Of a DNA stretch of 6,031 nt, positions 1-6,031 are shown in pieces (position 1 is the stretch's first letter; each line of letters opens with the position of its first letter). Position numbers and translations under genes: made by a program. The DNA comes from Armatimonadota bacterium (GTDB lineage Bacteria > Armatimonadota > Armatimonadia > Armatimonadales > Armatimonadaceae): assembly GCA_014381035.1 (NCBI GenBank), contig JACMIS010000091.1, positions 1-6,031 on the forward strand, in the 5' to 3' direction. The notes beneath the pieces were generated by a model, which saw only the letters and a program-made list of their open reading frames with translations, had not been told where the DNA came from and ran no database searches.

Positions 1-435
1 CAGGGCTACAATGATAGCCACGCCGCGCTCGGCATCCCGCAACCCCCGCGTCTCGACCCGGAATGCGGTGCGGCGGCACTGGCGATGTGTCGCAAACAAC
101 TGGGCTTGTCCTACGACCGAAAGGACGTGCTCCCTTCGATCCGTATCACCGGGCGCGGCAGTTCCAACCGGGACATCGTGGAGGCGTGTGACAAACTCGG
201 CGACGTGGAAGGAGTTTTTCATCGCGCCGACCCGAAAACTATCAAATCGCTTCCCAAGCCGCTGATCGCTTTCGTGGAGCATGATCATTTCGTCGCGGTA
301 TTGAAAACCGACGATAAGGCGGTCACGTACGCCTGTTCGGACTGTGGCGAGTGGCCGGGCGGAAACGTTACCCTCTCATGGGATCAATGGAACGCAATGG
401 AAGCGAGCGAAGTGATTGCCGTGTCTCCTGCTCCC
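1..435 (+). other. C39-like papain-fold cysteine peptidase domain at the Rhs N-terminus
   Basis: The segment shows the order Cys-His-Asp expected of bacteriocin-processing C39 peptidases. DPECGAAALAM places the nucleophile at residue 22 (64-66). A proline-introduced strand, PLIAFVEHDHFVAVLK, places His at residue 96 (286-288). CSDCGEW followed by LSWDQW places Asp at residue 114 (340-342). The Cys-His and His-Asp spacings of 74 and 18 residues are close to those I recall for C39 domains of peptidase-containing ABC transporters. The oxyanion Gln usually six residues before Cys is not in exact register; the nearest is Gln14, eight residues before. C39 enzymes cut after double-glycine leaders. 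A role here in self-processing or maturation of the Rhs protein is inference. It could also be an inactive or structural C39-like domain. Confidence 0.7.
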
Positions 436-3400
436 GTCGGTCTCGCCGGGATGGCGCGTGCGCTCAGCGTGATGGCCGTCGGGCGTCAGCAGCCGGAAAA
501 CTTCCCAACACGGAACTGCGGTTTTGACATCCACTCCTTGCGCTGCATAAACTCCTCTTCCTGTCCGACGCAGGGGGGCGGCCAGGGCGAGGGGGGACCC
601 GGTTGCGATGATCCGGTGAACCTTTCTACACTTGAAGAAGAGTTCATGCCGAAGCCTGACTTGGTAATATACAACCCGACGGGACCGTCTGTGATTTGGA
701 AGCGCATCTACCACAGCATGCGCGGCTATTCGAACCCGGGTCACCCGAGCGACCCGGAGACGTTGCTGGGCACTGGGTGGTCTCATCCGTACAATTCCTG
801 GGTGCGGATAGCCGGTGCGAGTGAACCGCGTCACCTAGTTTTGCCGAATGGATCACGAGTACGATTCACCCGAACGAATACCTCGAATGGTTTGTCGTCA
901 TGCGAAATAGAGGGGGGCGGGCTGCCCTTTCGCATCATGGAGCTGAAGACTGGTCCGCCGCCCCCTTATCAGGGTGCGACCACTTACCAGTGGATTATAT
1001 ACCATTTGGACGGAAGTTCGTGGAGCACACAACGCGTAGCCTCGAACCCGGCTGGCTACATTATCGCCAATGCCTATGTCCAGTACATGAGTGATCGACA
1101 GGGGCACGGCATTTCAATTGAGTCGGATCAAGGAAATACCACTGCCCCCTATTTGCGGGTTCGTCAGGAAAGTAATGGTCGAATCCTCCTCAATGTTCAG
1201 GCAACACCGACGGAAGAGGGACGCGAGGTTACGGCGTCGGATTGCTATGGGAGGAGCGTCACGTATACGGTTGAGACGCGAGCGTTGCCTGCACCTCCCC
1301 TTGCCGGTGATCCCCCGGAGGAATTTCGGCTTCTGACATCCGTTTTGCACATTCGGGGCATTGCCAACTCTCCGGGCGGTGTGAGTAGCAAGTATGGATA
1401 CACCTATGTTCCCAGCGGTGGGAACAGTGGGATGTTCTGCTTGTCATCGCATACGGTGCCATCTCCGAAGGGGGTAGGTACGGAGACGGCTACTATCCGT
1501 TACCACACCAACGGTACCATGGAGGTCAGGGAACTTGAAGATGCAAACGAGAAGATAACCCGTTTTACCAAAGTCACGCCTACTAAGACTAAGGTCGCTT
1601 TTCTCGTACGCATTCGGTACCCGTCAGATGCCCCGGCTCCTCCCGAATCCACTGTGGTCATCACGTCATACACATCCGAATATAACAACCACATGTCGGA
1701 GACGAGTCGTACCGACGCCACGAATACCCACAAACTTTTCCAGGCGTCCTATGGCTCAAACGCAAGGCAACCTGATACGGTCAGTGATGGCACGGGCAGG
1801 ACGTCGTCATTCACCTACGACCAGTACGGACGGCTCCTCACCGCGACTTCGCCGCGCGGGGTTACCACTCGTAACGTCTATGAATCCACCGATGTGGTTG
1901 GTTTTCCGCGCCTGATTCAAGTACAAACGCCCGGTGTCGGCAGTAGTTTCATTTCCTATGCTGGAAACTCCTATAACGTCGCGAGCGTTCAATACCCCTC
2001 GCCGACCGGTAACGGGATGGGGATGGCTTCCTATCAGTACGATACCCTTGGTAACGTCACCCAAGTAAGCTCTCCTGGTCCGAATTATAACACGATTACC
2101 CGAACCTTCTCCTATACCGGGCAAAGTGCTAACGGTGCCTCTTCTCCCGCGATCGGCCAACCGCGAACGATTACCGACGGCACTGGTGCCGTAGTGGCAC
2201 ATCTCGATTATGACCCTCAGGGAAACCTGATTTCCGCTAAAGACGGAGCCGGGCGAGTCTCGCAGATCTCATACAATGGGGCTAACCAACCAACTTCTGT
2301 TCACTACCCTGAACCGGTGAACCCGGCGGGCAGTTTTCCAGACCTTGTCGCAGTCAAATATCTGTATCCAGGGGGACCTGCCAATCGTACGACCCTGTAC
2401 GACAACGCTGGCAATATCGTTCGCGATTCCGAACCCATTTTCGGACGCGAGGGCCAGTTAACGGGCACGAAAAACACGCCCAGCAACGCGGAGCCGTTTG
2501 GTATTAAGTATGACGAGGCTTACCGCCTTGACGCGTTGATTCACCCCGATTCGACGCAGACCGGATATCTATACAACGCGGCAGGTCGCCTGCAACATGT
2601 CAATACGCCTGGGGGCGAAACGACCAGTTATCTTGAATACGACGGCGCGGGAAGGCCGCTCGCCGTGCGGGATGCGACCGGTGTAGTCACACGCTACGAG
2701 TATAACACGCCCGATGGCGCACTCTCGGCGGTGCGGTTTTCGGAATCCGATGGTACGACGACCGACGGTCCGAATAGCAAGAACAACGCTACGTTCTCCT
2801 ATGACAATTACGGTCGAATGGTGACCAAAACCGACGGGACCGGCACGGTGCACGTGGAATACGCCACACATGGCGGCATGGTGAGTTCGGTTACCACTCG
2901 CTACGATGGACCGCTGTGCCAAGATGCGCCGGTACCAGTCGCATTGCAACTCCGATATACCTACAACCCAGATGGTAGCCGACGAAGTCTAAAGACTGCC
3001 GCGGGTGACATCGAATACAGTTACGACGATGTCGGGCGGATTATCCAGGTTAGAAACTTTCTCGGGCACGCCCAGCAATATCAATACCGACCGACCGGGA
3101 CTGATACTGGCGAACTCAAAAGCGTTCTCACCGGAAATTACGGGACGGACAACCGATTCGACCTTTCCTTTACAACGGATTACAAGACGGACCATCTCGG
3201 GCGACCCACTGAGATTTTTTCTTACGGTGCTTATGACTACAGAACTGGCAGCCATACCGTGCTCGCAAGACTCGGTAATCTGGAAAACAATGACCCGATG
3301 CGCTACGACGCCGCGGGGAACCGGACCCAAGTCCCCATGCACTTTTTAGGGGGGAATCATAACTTTTATGATACACGCACCTATCAATACACTTACGATG

Positions 3401-4125
3401 CAAAGGGCAGACTTACCGGGCAATCGGACACGACCTCGATGGAAGTTAACTTCACTTATGATGTGATGGGTAACGCTACGACGTTTAACGGTGCCGGTGG
3501 GTTGACATATAACGAGCGCAATCAACCTACTGGCTCGGGCTATTCTTACAAGCCCAACGGCGATCCCATCATGCATAACGGGAAATCGATGCAATTCGAT
3601 TGCCTCGGTAACATGGTTTCATCGTCTGGCGTTGCCAGCACGAGACCCCTATTGAAGGCAGGCTATACCATTTCCGGGCAAAGAGCTTTCAAGGGAGTTC
3701 ACGCCTCCAGCCCGACCTACTTCCTGTATGACGGCACCATTCCTGTCTGTGAATTAAACAATCGTGGGGCTGTCATTGCGCTCAACACGTTCGGTGCGAC
3801 AGGGCTGATCAGCCGAGCGACGTTCAATGGGAATGTTCCGATCTCACAAACCGAGAACATGGTCTCGTCCGATGAAGGCAGCCAAGCCCGGGCGGGCGAT
3901 GACAGGAGGGTTTACCCCTGTGACCCGATCATTGTAGACGGTGAAGTGTTACACCCCTGTGGCGGGGCGTCGCCGTCGCCGTCGGTATCGCCGTCGGTAT
4001 CGCCGTCGCCGTCAGTATCGCCATCTCCATCGCCGTCAGTGTCGCCATCTGAGCCGCCCCCCCCCGCCCGATCCAAACAGCAATGTGCTGTCGGAGACGT
4101 TTTATGTTTTCGACGAGCGGGGTAA
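1..4125 (+). CDS. Rhs/YD-repeat polymorphic toxin, N-terminal and shell part (5' partial; frame breaks at 3' end)
   Basis: This frame is open from the first base of the window, so the gene starts further left. The first ATG (85) is not the true start, because the candidate peptidase Cys lies upstream of it at 64-66. In order it encodes a C39-like peptidase domain (residues about 1-145, counting from base 1), a Cys/Gly-rich linker (about 165-205), an Rhs entry region with the GWSHPY motif (775-792), and then many YD repeats such as YDQYGRL, YDPQGNL, YDNYGRM and YDAAGNR, from about 1810 onward. Rhs proteins form a hollow beta-shell that houses a C-terminal toxin; that is family knowledge. No export signal can be seen because the N-terminus is missing. 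Read literally, the frame stops at 4123-4125 after an unrelated tail of about 20 residues, while the Rhs sequence continues in frame 2. It is therefore best read as the upstream part of one protein of at least 1823 residues ending at 5473. Confidence 0.9.
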   Translation, partial: QGYNDSHAALGIPQPPRLDPECGAAALAMCRKQLGLSYDRKDVLPSIRITGRGSSNRDIVEACDKLGDVEGVFHRADPKTIKSLPKPLIAFVEHDHFVAVLKTDDKAVTYACSDCGEWPGGNVTLSWDQWNAMEASEVIAVSPAPVGLAGMARALSVMAVGRQQPENFPTRNCGFDIHSLRCINSSSCPTQGGGQGEGGPGCDDPVNLSTLEEEFMPKPDLVIYNPTGPSVIWKRIYHSMRGYSNPGHPSDPETLLGTGWSHPYNSWVRIAGASEPRHLVLPNGSRVRFTRTNTSNGLSSCEIEGGGLPFRIMELKTGPPPPYQGATTYQWIIYHLDGSSWSTQRVASNPAGYIIANAYVQYMSDRQGHGISIESDQGNTTAPYLRVRQESNGRILLNVQATPTEEGREVTASDCYGRSVTYTVETRALPAPPLAGDPPEEFRLLTSVLHIRGIANSPGGVSSKYGYTYVPSGGNSGMFCLSSHTVPSPKGVGTETATIRYHTNGTMEVRELEDANEKITRFTKVTPTKTKVAFLVRIRYPSDAPAPPESTVVITSYTSEYNNHMSETSRTDATNTHKLFQASYGSNARQPDTVSDGTGRTSSFTYDQYGRLLTATSPRGVTTRNVYESTDVVGFPRLIQVQTPGVGSSFISYAGNSYNVASVQYPSPTGNGMGMASYQYDTLGNVTQVSSPGPNYNTITRTFSYTGQSANGASSPAIGQPRTITDGTGAVVAHLDYDPQGNLISAKDGAGRVSQISYNGANQPTSVHYPEPVNPAGSFPDLVAVKYLYPGGPANRTTLYDNAGNIVRDSEPIFGREGQLTGTKNTPSNAEPFGIKYDEAYRLDALIHPDSTQTGYLYNAAGRLQHVNTPGGETTSYLEYDGAGRPLAVRDATGVVTRYEYNTPDGALSAVRFSESDGTTTDGPNSKNNATFSYDNYGRMVTKTDGTGTVHVEYATHGGMVSSVTTRYDGPLCQDAPVPVALQLRYTYNPDGSRRSLKTAAGDIEYSYDDVGRIIQVRNFLGHAQQYQYRPTGTDTGELKSVLTGNYGTDNRFDLSFTTDYKTDHLGRPTEIFSYGAYDYRTGSHTVLARLGNLENNDPMRYDAAGNRTQVPMHFLGGNHNFYDTRTYQYTYDAKGRLTGQSDTTSMEVNFTYDVMGNATTFNGAGGLTYNERNQPTGSGYSYKPNGDPIMHNGKSMQFDCLGNMVSSSGVASTRPLLKAGYTISGQRAFKGVHASSPTYFLYDGTIPVCELNNRGAVIALNTFGATGLISRATFNGNVPISQTENMVSSDEGSQARAGDDRRVYPCDPIIVDGEVLHPCGGASPSPSVSPSVSPSPSVSPSPSPSVSPSEPPPPARSKQQCAVGDVLCFRRAG
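433..612 (+). other. Cys- and Gly-rich linker between peptidase domain and Rhs shell
   Basis: After the peptidase fold comes a short hydrophobic/amphipathic stretch (PVGLAGMARALSVMAVG). Then comes a region with four cysteines (contexts NCG, RCI, SSCP and PGCDD) and, at 574-603, a glycine-rich stretch GGGQGEGGPG. I know no named domain here. The cysteines could form disulfides or bind a metal. The glycine pairs are the kind of site a C39 peptidase cuts, but no leader-peptide helix pattern precedes them convincingly, so a processing site is only a possibility. Confidence 0.4.
3970..4050 (+). repeat. Ser-Pro-Val tandem coding repeat (SPSV / SPSPSV / SPSPSPSV units)
   Basis: In frame 1 this stretch is built from tcg-ccg-type codons ending each unit in a Val codon. 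Units are 18 bp (3970-3987), 12 bp (3988-3999), 18 bp (4000-4017), 24 bp (4018-4041) and a partial unit of 9 bp (4042-4050). Units differ in number of SP pairs, which is what slippage or unequal recombination produces. The repeat sits between two parts of the Rhs fold: the last shell segment and the YVFDERGNV strand that opens the Rhs-associated core. It probably forms an extended surface or lumen loop. Just before it are two closely spaced Cys residues in the contexts YPCDP and HPCGG (about 3917-3960). Confidence 0.85.
4057..4065 (+). other. Nine-C homopolymer at the reading-frame break (+1 shift)
   Basis: Frame 1 reads gag-ccg-ccc-ccc-ccc-gcc and then a tail unrelated to Rhs, ending at 4125. 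Reading one C fewer gives an uninterrupted transition from SPSEPPPP into PDPNSNVLSETFYVFDERGN, which joins the standard Rhs core. The break is therefore best placed in this C run, with the 'extra' base being any one of the nine. Homopolymer miscounting in sequencing, a real slippage mutation, phase variation, or +1 ribosomal slippage on CCC-C would all give this picture. Family knowledge: proline codons CCC followed by C are intrinsically prone to +1 slippage, normally suppressed by m1G37 in tRNA-Pro. Confidence 0.85.
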
Positions 4126-5473
4126 CGTCATAGTGCGGTTTGCCGCAGGACTGCATACCTGGACTCGCTACTGGCCGTATGGTCAGGAGATTCCAGGGAT
4201 CAACGCGTCACACCCGGCGTTCGCGGGCGACCCGTGGGGCTTCGGGGCGCAATCGGGCTACTACACGGACCGCGAGACCGGGTTCGTCTACTGCACGTTC
4301 CGCTACTACGACCCGGCGACGGGGCGGTGGCTCAACCGCGACCCCATCGGCTACGCGGGCGGCTTGAACCTGTACAAATACTGCGGCAACAACCCGGTAA
4401 TGGGCAGCGACCCGCTCGGTCTCGACGACGGGGACGACATCCTGCCGGAGAGCCAGGACACCAGCCGCCTGGGGATGGCGTACATCCCGGGCATCAAGGC
4501 GTTCGCGAACGACAAGATGTGGAAGGGCGGGAGCTGCGAGCGCAAGCAGTTCAGCAACGGCATCAGCAACATCCCCGTGGTCGGCGACGCGAACCAGGCC
4601 GTGATCGCGGTCACCGGGCACGACTACATCGCGGGTAGCGACGTGAGCGGCGCGGAACGCGGAATGGCTATCCTCGGAACCGTCGTTCACGGCGCGGGCG
4701 CGTTAGGCGATTTGGCACCGACCCGAGGAGGTGCCAGTTGGGGACCCTGTTTCGTTGCTGGAACGCCTGTCCAAATGGCGGATGGTTCGACGAAACCAAT
4801 CGAGCAGGTAAAAAGTGATGATTTGGTGAAATCACGCGATCCGGTAACAGGCAGGGATGTAACTGGACGAGTCGTAAGAAATTTTGTCAGCCAAGCGCGT
4901 AACTCTTTGATCACCCTGGAGTTTAATAATGGCGAGACTGTCAAGACTACAGAAAATCACCCCTTTTATGTCACCGGAATGGGATTCGTATTGGCAGGCG
5001 ACCTGAAGATGAACGATAGAGTTGCCACTGGCTTGACCGAAACATCCGACACGGAACTCACTGCAGTTACCCGCCACAACGAAGATGAGGAAAGAGTTTA
5101 CAATTTCGAGGTTGAAAACTCGCACACCTACTTTGTTGGTAAAATCAACGGTGGTACGTGGGTACATAATGACTGCAACGATGTCGCTCGAAAACTAGCT
5201 AAAAAGTTTGGAGGAGGTGAAGTGCAAATCACACCACGTATTGGCAATTACTTGCAGTTCGCAAAAGGGGTGCAACCTCTAGGTCAACCAAAATACTTTA
5301 AGAATCTATGGGGAGGAGAGGTTGCGTGGTACGATCATTCAGTCCAGGCATACATTGAAGGTGGGGCAGTTTTCATCCGTGATCCATACATGCTAAATCA
5401 CACGAAACCTGTACCACTCGATGATTGGCTTGGACTCTGGGAGCCTACATTTTACAATCTCAGTTGGAAGTAA
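4058..5473 (+). CDS. Rhs protein C-terminal part: Rhs-associated core, PT-TG pretoxin, Hint domain, papain-like toxin tip
   Basis: This is the frame-2 continuation of the upstream Rhs gene. An in-frame ATG exists at 3941, but the codons from there to the C run are an Arg-rich misreading of the Ser-Pro repeat, so genuine coding begins at or just after the C run. A GTG at 4085 has no good ribosome-binding site in front of it. In order it encodes the Rhs core, a pretoxin segment, a Hint autoprocessing domain and a 100-residue toxin tip; each is described separately. Counting the repaired protein from base 1, the core ends at residue 1474, Hint spans about 1583-1723 and the protein ends at residue 1823. 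Base composition changes sharply inside it, from about 65-70% GC up to 4740 to about 47% after 4800, as is usual where a conserved core meets an exchanged tip. The stop TAA is at 5471-5473 and directly abuts the next start codon. Confidence 0.9.
   Translation, partial: PPPPDPNSNVLSETFYVFDERGNVIVRFAAGLHTWTRYWPYGQEIPGINASHPAFAGDPWGFGAQSGYYTDRETGFVYCTFRYYDPATGRWLNRDPIGYAGGLNLYKYCGNNPVMGSDPLGLDDGDDILPESQDTSRLGMAYIPGIKAFANDKMWKGGSCERKQFSNGISNIPVVGDANQAVIAVTGHDYIAGSDVSGAERGMAILGTVVHGAGALGDLAPTRGGASWGPCFVAGTPVQMADGSTKPIEQVKSDDLVKSRDPVTGRDVTGRVVRNFVSQARNSLITLEFNNGETVKTTENHPFYVTGMGFVLAGDLKMNDRVATGLTETSDTELTAVTRHNEDEERVYNFEVENSHTYFVGKINGGTWVHNDCNDVARKLAKKFGGGEVQITPRIGNYLQFAKGVQPLGQPKYFKNLWGGEVAWYDHSVQAYIEGGAVFIRDPYMLNHTKPVPLDDWLGLWEPTFYNLSWK
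4112..4423 (+). other. Rhs-associated core (hyperconserved C-terminal shell plug)
   Basis: It runs from FDERGNVIVRF through WPYGQEI and [19 protein letters not shown] to [20 protein letters not shown] and finally SDPLGL (DPLGL at 4409-4423). These are the signature segments of the Rhs-associated core. In Rhs and TcC proteins, aspartates of the paired DPxG motifs catalyse self-cleavage just after this segment, freeing the C-terminal domain inside the shell. Both DPIG and DPLGL are intact here, so cleavage near 4423 is expected, by analogy. This is also the highest-GC part of the window (44 of 60 bases in 4201-4260). Confidence 0.92.
4234..4383 (+). repeat. Direct repeat, copy 1 (inside the main Rhs core)
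   Basis: This stretch matches 5882-6031 base for base with no gaps at an offset of 1648, with 9 mismatches by eye in 150 bases (94% identity). The match starts abruptly at its left end. Recombination between the copies would remove exactly 1648 bp (the Hint domain, toxin and immunity gene) and fuse the shell in frame to the next tip. Confidence 0.93.
4553..4720 (+). other. PT-TG-type pretoxin segment
   Basis: Between the Rhs core and the Hint domain lies a small hydrophobic helical segment: GISNIPVVGDANQAVIAVTG, then HDYIAGSDVSGAERGMAILG. The 'PVVGD...TGxDxxxGxxxsxxER' pattern matches my memory of PT-TG pretoxin domains, which precede many toxin tips in polymorphic toxins. Their exact role is unsettled; they may assist trafficking or toxin presentation. 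The assignment is by pattern, not by search. Confidence 0.6.
4745..5170 (+). other. Hint (hedgehog/intein-like) autoprocessing pretoxin domain
   Basis: All the hallmark blocks are visible. The first residue of the splice fold is Cys in PCFVAGTPVQMADGS (Cys at 4748-4750, residue 1583), followed by IEQVKSDDLVKS. Block B is TTENHPFYV with the catalytic His at 4958-4960 (residue 1653). The last blocks are VYNFEVENSHTYFVG and GTWVHN, with His-Asn at 5165-5170. It is about 141 residues long, with no homing-endonuclease insert, as for polymorphic-toxin Hint domains. The residue after the terminal Asn is Asp rather than Cys/Ser/Thr, so full protein splicing is unlikely, while Asn cyclisation could still cut the chain and free the toxin tip. 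Confidence 0.92.
5171..5473 (+). other. C-terminal toxin tip, probable small papain-like (Tox-PL type) domain
   Basis: The 100 residues after the Hint Asn form the toxin position of the protein. They begin DCNDVARKLAKKFGGG, a Cys at the head of a helix as in papain-like folds (Cys at 5174-5176, residue 1725). They continue to WYDHSVQAYIEGGAVFIRDP with a candidate His (5336-5338, residue 1779) and Asp (5381-5383, residue 1794), and end with LDDWLGLWEP. The order Cys, His, Asp with the His at the start of a strand and the Asp 15 residues on in 'hxRDP' is the layout of papain-fold toxins such as the Tox-PL group. Such toxins may act as proteases, deamidases or similar; the target here is unknown. 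If Hint cleaves, the Cys becomes the second residue of the released toxin. The assignment is motif-based only. Confidence 0.6.
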
Positions 5474-5830
5474 ATGAGAGACGACTCCGATATTTCCGTT
5501 GATCGCTTGATAGCGATATCGACTCGCTACCCGCATATGTTTGTGGGTAGCGACTCGTTCCTCCATCTATCTCTTTTCATAGACGGGTTTGCCACCGGTC
5601 GAGGTGGCATCGAATTGCAAGTTTTCCAAAGTTTTGTACGCTGGCTCGCAGAAGAATGCTATCTACGATTCGAGATGCCGAGAAACATTCCCTGGCATTT
5701 ATATGTGAAAGAAATGTTTCCTTTGGATTCTGAAGCATTGATTGCAATGAAAAATCTTTGGAACCGATTCAGTCAGAACCAATCCATTCAGGACATTGAA
5801 TTGTCAACGCTTTTGTTGTCAGACGACTGA
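5474..5830 (+). CDS. Probable cognate immunity protein (118 aa)
   Basis: The ATG follows the toxin stop codon TAA with no base in between and in the same frame, so translation is probably coupled. GGAAG (5466-5470), three bases before the ATG, is the only Shine-Dalgarno-like element and is rather close. The product is a small, soluble, acidic-looking protein with no signal peptide or membrane segment. Its shape (DRLIAISTRYPHMFVGSDS, then a helix with FIDGF, then FQSFVRWL, a Trp-containing middle, and PLDSEALIAMKNLWNRF) resembles a widespread group of small proteins found beside toxins, with the pattern 'I..RP.M.hG..S...L..FI.GY...F..Wh...W...h...E.A...h..L...F'. I do not know a firm family name. 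Position immediately after a toxin tip is the strongest reason to call it immunity. It is AT-rich (18 of 60 bases G/C in 5701-5760), like the toxin and unlike the Rhs core, so the two probably travelled together. Confidence 0.72.
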   Translation: MRDDSDISVDRLIAISTRYPHMFVGSDSFLHLSLFIDGFATGRGGIELQVFQSFVRWLAEECYLRFEMPRNIPWHLYVKEMFPLDSEALIAMKNLWNRFSQNQSIQDIELSTLLLSDD

Positions 5831-5881
5831 TCAAATTTCTACCATCTTTTCATAACCCGAGCTACTTTCCTTGTAAATTTT
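5831..5881 (+). other. AT-rich spacer between immunity gene and orphan rhs module
   Basis: This 51-base stretch is about 32% GC. I see no convincing hairpin terminator, no strong Shine-Dalgarno and no convincing promoter pair. It ends at a sharp edge, where the sequence switches to the high-GC repeat of the Rhs core. Confidence 0.6.
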
Positions 5882-6031
5882 GTGGGGCTTCGGCGCGCAA
5901 TCGGGCTACTACACGGACCGCGAGACGGGGTTCGTCTACTGCACGTTCCGCTACTACGACCCGGCGACGGGGCGGTGGCTCAGCGAGGACCCCATCGGCT
6001 ACGCGGGCGGCCAGAACCTGTACAAGTACTG
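5882..6031 (+). pseudogene. Orphan (displaced) rhs tip module, core-derived start, 3' end outside window
   Basis: From 5882 the DNA repeats part of the Rhs core of the main gene. In frame 3 it reads [20 protein letters not shown], then [20 protein letters not shown] and [10 protein letters not shown], and is still open at the window edge. It lacks any shell and peptidase part. It follows an in-frame TAA at 5874-5876, and a TTG at 5880 is the only nearby start-like codon, with no ribosome-binding site. It is therefore most likely not expressed by itself but is a silent 3' cassette of the kind found downstream of Rhs and CdiA genes, where a bit of core precedes another toxin-immunity pair. Compared with the main copy, residues differ at LSED versus LNRD and GGQN versus GGLN, so it is an independently diverged copy. 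What tip it carries lies beyond the window. Confidence 0.85.
5882..6031 (+). repeat. Direct repeat, copy 2 (start of orphan module)
   Basis: This is the second copy of the repeat at 4234-4383, continuing to and probably past the window edge. Four of the nine differences cluster at the LNRD/LSED codons, two at the GGLN/GGQN codon, and three are silent. The real right-hand limit of the homology cannot be seen. Confidence 0.93.

Follow-up and report, generated by a model that had tools for sequence, protein, structure and literature searches.

A left-truncated rhs core fragment behind a putative immunity gene in Armatimonadota: the probable start of an orphan tip cassette

Why does part of the core of an rhs gene recur behind the gene that follows it, and what does the second copy lead into? 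The question was raised by a stretch of 6,031 nucleotides (the window), whose last 150 bases repeat a part of the main gene's core. The features of the locus are collected in Table 1. The main gene is not read in one frame throughout: frame 1 is open to 4125, frame 2 is open from 3941, and the switch between them falls at the C9 tract (4057-4065), where phase variation, decay or an erroneous base call may account for it. On the N-terminal side of the Rhs shell, 58-327 encodes a C39 peptidase domain (PF03412, E 1.6e-8). A PADLOC run found nothing in the window.

Table 1. Coordinates of the features read in the window.
Feature	Position	Strand	Basis or remark
Rhs shell of main gene, frame 1	1..4125	+	C39 peptidase domain, DUF6531, RHS/YD repeats (Pfam, NCBIfam); start left of window
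C9 tract in Pro/Ser-rich linker, frame 1 to frame 2	4057..4065	+	sequence read directly
Frame-2 part of main gene (core, pre-toxin modules, tip; ends TAA)	3941..5473	+	core TIGR03696, E 5e-22
Core repeat, resident copy	4234..4383	+	repeat comparison
DPLGL, core/tip junction motif of resident gene	4409..4423	+	translation; motif named in the cited part of PMC3150448
PT-TG pre-toxin domain	4544..4717	+	E 4e-8
PT-HINT (intein-like) pre-toxin domain	4772..5173	+	E 6e-17
Toxin tip	5174..5470	+	no family above its cut-off
118-aa ORF, putative immunity gene	5474..5830	+	position, directly after main gene's stop codon
AT-rich spacer (31% GC) with TAA at 5874-5876 in frame of following fragment	5831..5881	+	sequence
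Orphan rhs core fragment, left-truncated, running off window	5882..6031	+	repeat comparison

Repeat search and direct comparison showed 141 of 150 bases to be identical between 4234-4383 and 5882-6031, ungapped and at a spacing of 1648, which confirms the repeat of 94% identity that the initial annotation had reported behind the putative immunity gene. Placed without gaps at any other start from 1 to 5731, the 150-mer matched at no more than 67/150 bases, and a chance match is thereby excluded. The repeat length of 150 bp is set by the window edge, where the copy runs off before its expected DPxGL; by register with the resident copy this motif would fall at 6057-6071, beyond the window end. 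The longest exact run common to both copies measures 55 bases (4280-4334). Three of the nine base differences are silent and the other six alter three residues (NR to SE, L to Q). The second copy reads in the core frame, with a TAA at 5874-5876 in the same frame just upstream, and contains neither a stop nor a frameshift in its 150 bases. To the left of 5882, identity to the flank of the resident copy amounts to 10% over 10 bases and 27% over 100 bases, and the sharp left cut-off noted previously is borne out. The stretch 5882-6031 is a left-truncated rhs core fragment, in core frame, behind a putative immunity gene. A complete second rhs gene was considered as well and, as far as the left edge shows, rejected, on account of the missing upstream homology over these 100 bases and the in-frame stop at 5874.

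The two copies of the window are closer to each other (94%) than to any core in 58 Armatimonadota loci, among which the best other core matched the orphan copy at 75% over 144 bases and the resident copy at 77% over 138 bases. In a phylum-wide DNA search, which scored at most two candidates per genome, the resident core was matched in 58 of 291 genomes, the ten strongest rows showing 72-81% identity over about 100-180 bases. As no relative came near 94%, the two copies of the window share recent history within one lineage. At the protein level, a core query of 64 aa gave one viral contig and 79 genome loci, with the best 80 of 114 candidates retained. By E-value, the leading five named core matches in genome contigs were L001 (70%), L005 (68%), L002 (64%), L004 (62%) and L003 (59%). 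L002, the third best by E-value, is an Opitutaceae MAG, and the other four we take to be Armatimonadota, by title or by family; the core loci beyond these five belong mostly to other groups than Armatimonadota. These matches point to Armatimonadota as the phylum of the window. In a plasmid collection 991 records matched, 15 of them at 60-80% identity and the rest below 60%, and the plasmid matches listed are rhs or HINT proteins of other groups. No relative of the core-to-tip protein was found among the genome and viral contigs, and an exact 30-base pattern from the orphan copy had no match in the viral contigs.

It is likely that 5882-6031 forms the 5' end of an orphan rhs cassette, which should continue via DPxGL into another tip and immunity gene. 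Most likely it arose in the way modelled in the cited part of PMC2935791, where a cassette with its own core fragment recombines into the rhs core, joins a new tip to the shell and pushes the older tip, still bearing a core piece, downstream. Homologous recombination between the core copies could then join the orphan tip to the shell. The tip-swapping precedent that the initial annotation had invoked is real, as main/orphan recombination of rhs was described in passaged Salmonella (PMC3967940, in the section cited). The crossover that the annotation proposed, which would delete 1648 bp, agrees with the spacing and with a register in frame, but it is incomplete, as the resident immunity gene would also be deleted. 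Since a single crossover has this consequence, the cited sections of PMC3150448 and PMC3967940 favour recombination after duplication of the locus. To call the cassette 'ready-made' is too strong because the resident gene is frame-switched at the C9 tract, and this switch may indicate that the locus is decaying. A locus with two switches, in which stored tips are swapped via the core while on/off slippage of the C9 tract (4057-4065), which lies just ahead of that core, gates whichever tip is loaded, can be envisaged but is quite improbable.

More than one core copy was found in 27 of the 80 core loci, which were neither restricted by phylum nor chosen for multiplicity. The 58 Armatimonadota loci consist of 14 + 20 + 20 regions from match lists, plus L001, L003, L004 and L005, and together with the window they contain 159 core hits in total. 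Two or more core hits on one strand are present in 45 of the 58 loci, many of them chosen for multiplicity, and a single core hit in 13, the fetched regions being biased towards multiple cores through their selection from match lists. The most core hits among the fetched loci were counted in L137 (4063-16230, minus strand), with eleven in about 12 kb, two of which are pieces of one split core. Where a core is preceded by an open frame of at least 400 aa (18 cores), another core lies within 2.5 kb in 13 cases. The spacing in these 13 Armatimonadota pairs ranges from 931 to 2034 bases (1648 in the window), and the frame past the second core extends over at least 117 aa in 11 pairs and over 24 and 19 aa in the other two.

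Among 98 downstream copies, 94 are uncut by the locus end; a tip frame of at least 60 aa was found in 72 of these 94, and an ORF of at least 60 aa starts close behind in 65 of the 72. Among the truncated downstream copies, whose open frame ahead of the core is shorter than 130 aa, 57 of 78 have a tip frame of 60 aa or more, and 52 of the 57 have an ORF of at least 60 aa close behind. The count of 57/78 gives odds of roughly 7 in 10 that an intact tip follows in the window. We infer that such a tip probably follows, and that exchange occurs in the organism of the window. The remaining copies agree with a rather unlikely alternative, in which the fragment is a degenerate remnant, i.e. a displaced core piece whose tip has been lost or broken and which stores no function. 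Twenty-one of the 78 truncated copies fail the tip test, a crude one in which L100 (58 aa) and L101 (59 aa) fail narrowly and L140 at 9020 fails through a short core match alone, its frame continuing for 188 aa. Also among the failures is the copy in L005 at 10493, which has a spacing of 1601, near the 1648 of the window, and ends 11 aa past the matched core. Against a remnant stand the 57 comparable copies that do carry a tip frame, and the visible 150 bases, which are free of stops and frameshifts.

A recombinant junction of the predicted type, for which a search of related genomes had been suggested, was found between G185 (L139) and G184 (L159). A long rhs gene of G185 (L139) and an orphan of G184 (L159) carry tips with 99.3% identity over 137 aa, and the L139 tip is also matched at 97.8% by a 92-aa frame in L160, again from G184. 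At the DNA level, L139 and L159 show 95.6% identity over 2045 bases, starting 27 bases inside the core, while their left flanks differ; the shared bases take in the tip, with the greater part of the core before it and the ORF and cassette that follow. The second long rhs gene of G185 (L176) matches the first over 4645 bases at 89.5%, ending 154 bases after the core start. These data document a past main/orphan exchange between two related genomes, with either direction possible, and they concern relatives and not the organism of the window. The block of about 2 kb with its two cassettes lies at a long rhs gene locus in G185 (L139, minus strand) and is orphan in G184 (L159, L160). In addition, L139 carries a 1212-base duplication at 94%.

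The fragment could also be an expressed toxin-antitoxin or immunity module, acting in its own cell or guarding against kin, and this is improbable. Salmonella RHS elements are reported as toxin-antitoxin modules in the cited part of PMC7043789. A promoter-like match is present at 5816-5845, and the sole start-like codon between the TAA at 5874-5876 and the copy is a TTG at 5880-5882. No Shine-Dalgarno-like sequence was seen by eye before the copy, and the frame is closed by the stop at 5874-5876. A consensus match by itself is no evidence of a promoter, and 5400-6031 holds two matches where shuffled sequence averaged 0.7 (sd 0.8). Judged from the stop codon and the missing start, the orphan fragment is probably silent in its present form.

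Assemblers often break or misjoin at repeats, and the window ends inside one. The contig end might accordingly have been misjoined in the repeated core of another rhs gene, from the same or a related genome, but such an artefact is very unlikely. The junction at 5882 lies 46 bases to the left of the 55-base exact run and the left flank is dissimilar to that of the other copy, so the shared repeat did not make the join at this point. The same geometry is found in other assemblies, including L139 on a contig of 1.2 Mb and L142 on a contig of 170 kb.

The left edges of orphan homology were compared in 98 entries, namely those of 105 orphan-class hits for which the same genome offered a partner; the window's own copies, at -4, are two of these entries, and reciprocal pairs were counted twice and pieces of a split core separately. 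Relative to the core start, the edges lie between -1200, where the search ended, and +97 bases, with 24 of 98 within 16 bases of it, 48 further left and 26 deeper in the core. Two of three long-gene pairs within one genome stay alike to -1104 and -1200 bases; in the third, formed by two L146 genes, the likeness sets in at +39/+63, inside the core. Given how far left two of the three pairs remain alike, most orphans that stop early are more plausibly truncated in fact than affected by falling conservation. The spread of left edges fits homologous recombination breakpoints better than a fixed cassette end. A fixed boundary had looked likely after the first batch, and was abandoned when the fuller count gave a modest pile-up and no fixed end. 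That the end is set by a site-specific, integron-like element at the GFGxQxGYY codons is hardly credible: the 24 edges near the core start and 7 of 18 pre-picked pairs within 10 bases of the edge position (one further copy had no DNA partner, and neither the first nor the pre-picked batch count included copies whose start lies deeper in the core) are set against the 48 and 26 edges lying elsewhere, and against core-fragment lengths that vary and are explained by recombination breakpoints in the cited part of PMC2935791.

The tip at present carried by the main gene (5174-5470) matched no Pfam or NCBIfam family above cut-off, and a search of length-matched database proteins with the tip region, like a search of the PDB, found no match. 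An orphan tip in L147 shares 28% identity with the window tip over 102 aa. In a three-way alignment of the window tip, L147 and P0034, one Cys column and one Asp column are invariant; a His is present between the Cys and the Asp in each of the three tips, that of the window falling in a different alignment column. The residues invite the guess that the tip may be a papain-like enzyme, and with a mean pLDDT of 39.5, obtained for the tip with AlphaFold from three aligned sequences, this reading stays a guess. The immunity role of 5474-5830 is putative and assigned by position. A protein database search at E 0.001 gave no relative of its 118-aa product, which reached no Pfam or NCBIfam family cut-off either, and the weak matches in 2 of the 291 genomes of the phylum (E 0.004 and 0.006) are not trusted. 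The protein P0001 has core and PT-TG in common with the window over 218 aa (54%), after which the toxin differs; a second joint, or exchange point, after PT-TG therefore seems likely. In its residues 1-16, P0001 as predicted begins in a similar Pro/Ser linker. The HINT region and the tip have GC contents of 0.475 and 0.45, against 0.64-0.67 across core and PT-TG. The drop comes after the PT-TG region (at 4436-4735) and not at DPLGL.

The arrangement is already known from other bacteria, and it recurs in related bacteria. In the sections of the papers cited here, Jackson et al. 2009 described strings of core+tip fragments behind intact genes, with variable core length and recombination (PMC2935791). 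Poole et al. defined orphan rhs-CT/rhsI modules, whose tips occur on full-length genes elsewhere (PMC3150448). Koskiniemi et al. reported main/orphan recombination in Salmonella, with 522 bp shared at 95% identity in LT2 (PMC3967940), and polymorphic toxin-immunity cassettes were treated by Zhang et al. 2012 (PMC3482391). Among the literature matches listed, no paper had Armatimonadota rhs genes or polymorphic toxins as its subject, by title, and armatimonads were mentioned in one of them, a single time. Main/orphan tip exchange, mainly enterobacterial in the cited papers, is here extended to a phylum, that of L005, where some portion of the window's core-to-tip protein finds a match in 200 of 291 genomes and one array (L137) holds its 11 core hits within an 18-kb region. 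G185 and G184 provide a natural main/orphan genome pair that lets the exchange be followed base by base.

Like the enterobacterial orphan rhs-CT/rhsI modules (PMC3150448, PMC3967940), as they appear in the cited sections, the window has a high-identity core fragment behind a main rhs gene and an immunity gene, which in the window is putative; those modules are usually without initiation signals, and in Salmonella they recombine with the main gene. Unlike them, the window has its best named core relatives mostly in Armatimonadota, the shared core that can be seen is shorter, with 150 bp up to the window edge that cuts it, and its resident gene has PT-TG and HINT pre-toxin domains together with a C39 domain. 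Compared with these modules, the orphan of the window is known from its core piece alone, ending before the tip and immunity gene. C-terminal displacement, described for Enterobacteriaceae with a model that includes a circular intermediate (PMC2935791, cited part), shares with the present locus the downstream core+tip strings, the variable length of core fragments and the core clade of the attached gene. With the polymorphic toxin cassettes in the cited part of PMC3482391, the window has in common the toxin-immunity order, both genes being replaceable by one recombination at the 3' end; in contrast, its tip and putative immunity protein reach no Pfam or NCBIfam cut-off. The orphan cdiA-CT/cdiI modules, as covered in the section of PMC3150448 cited, likewise store tip-immunity pairs behind the main gene, but they have a different shell and a VENN junction, whereas the window locus uses DPxGL.
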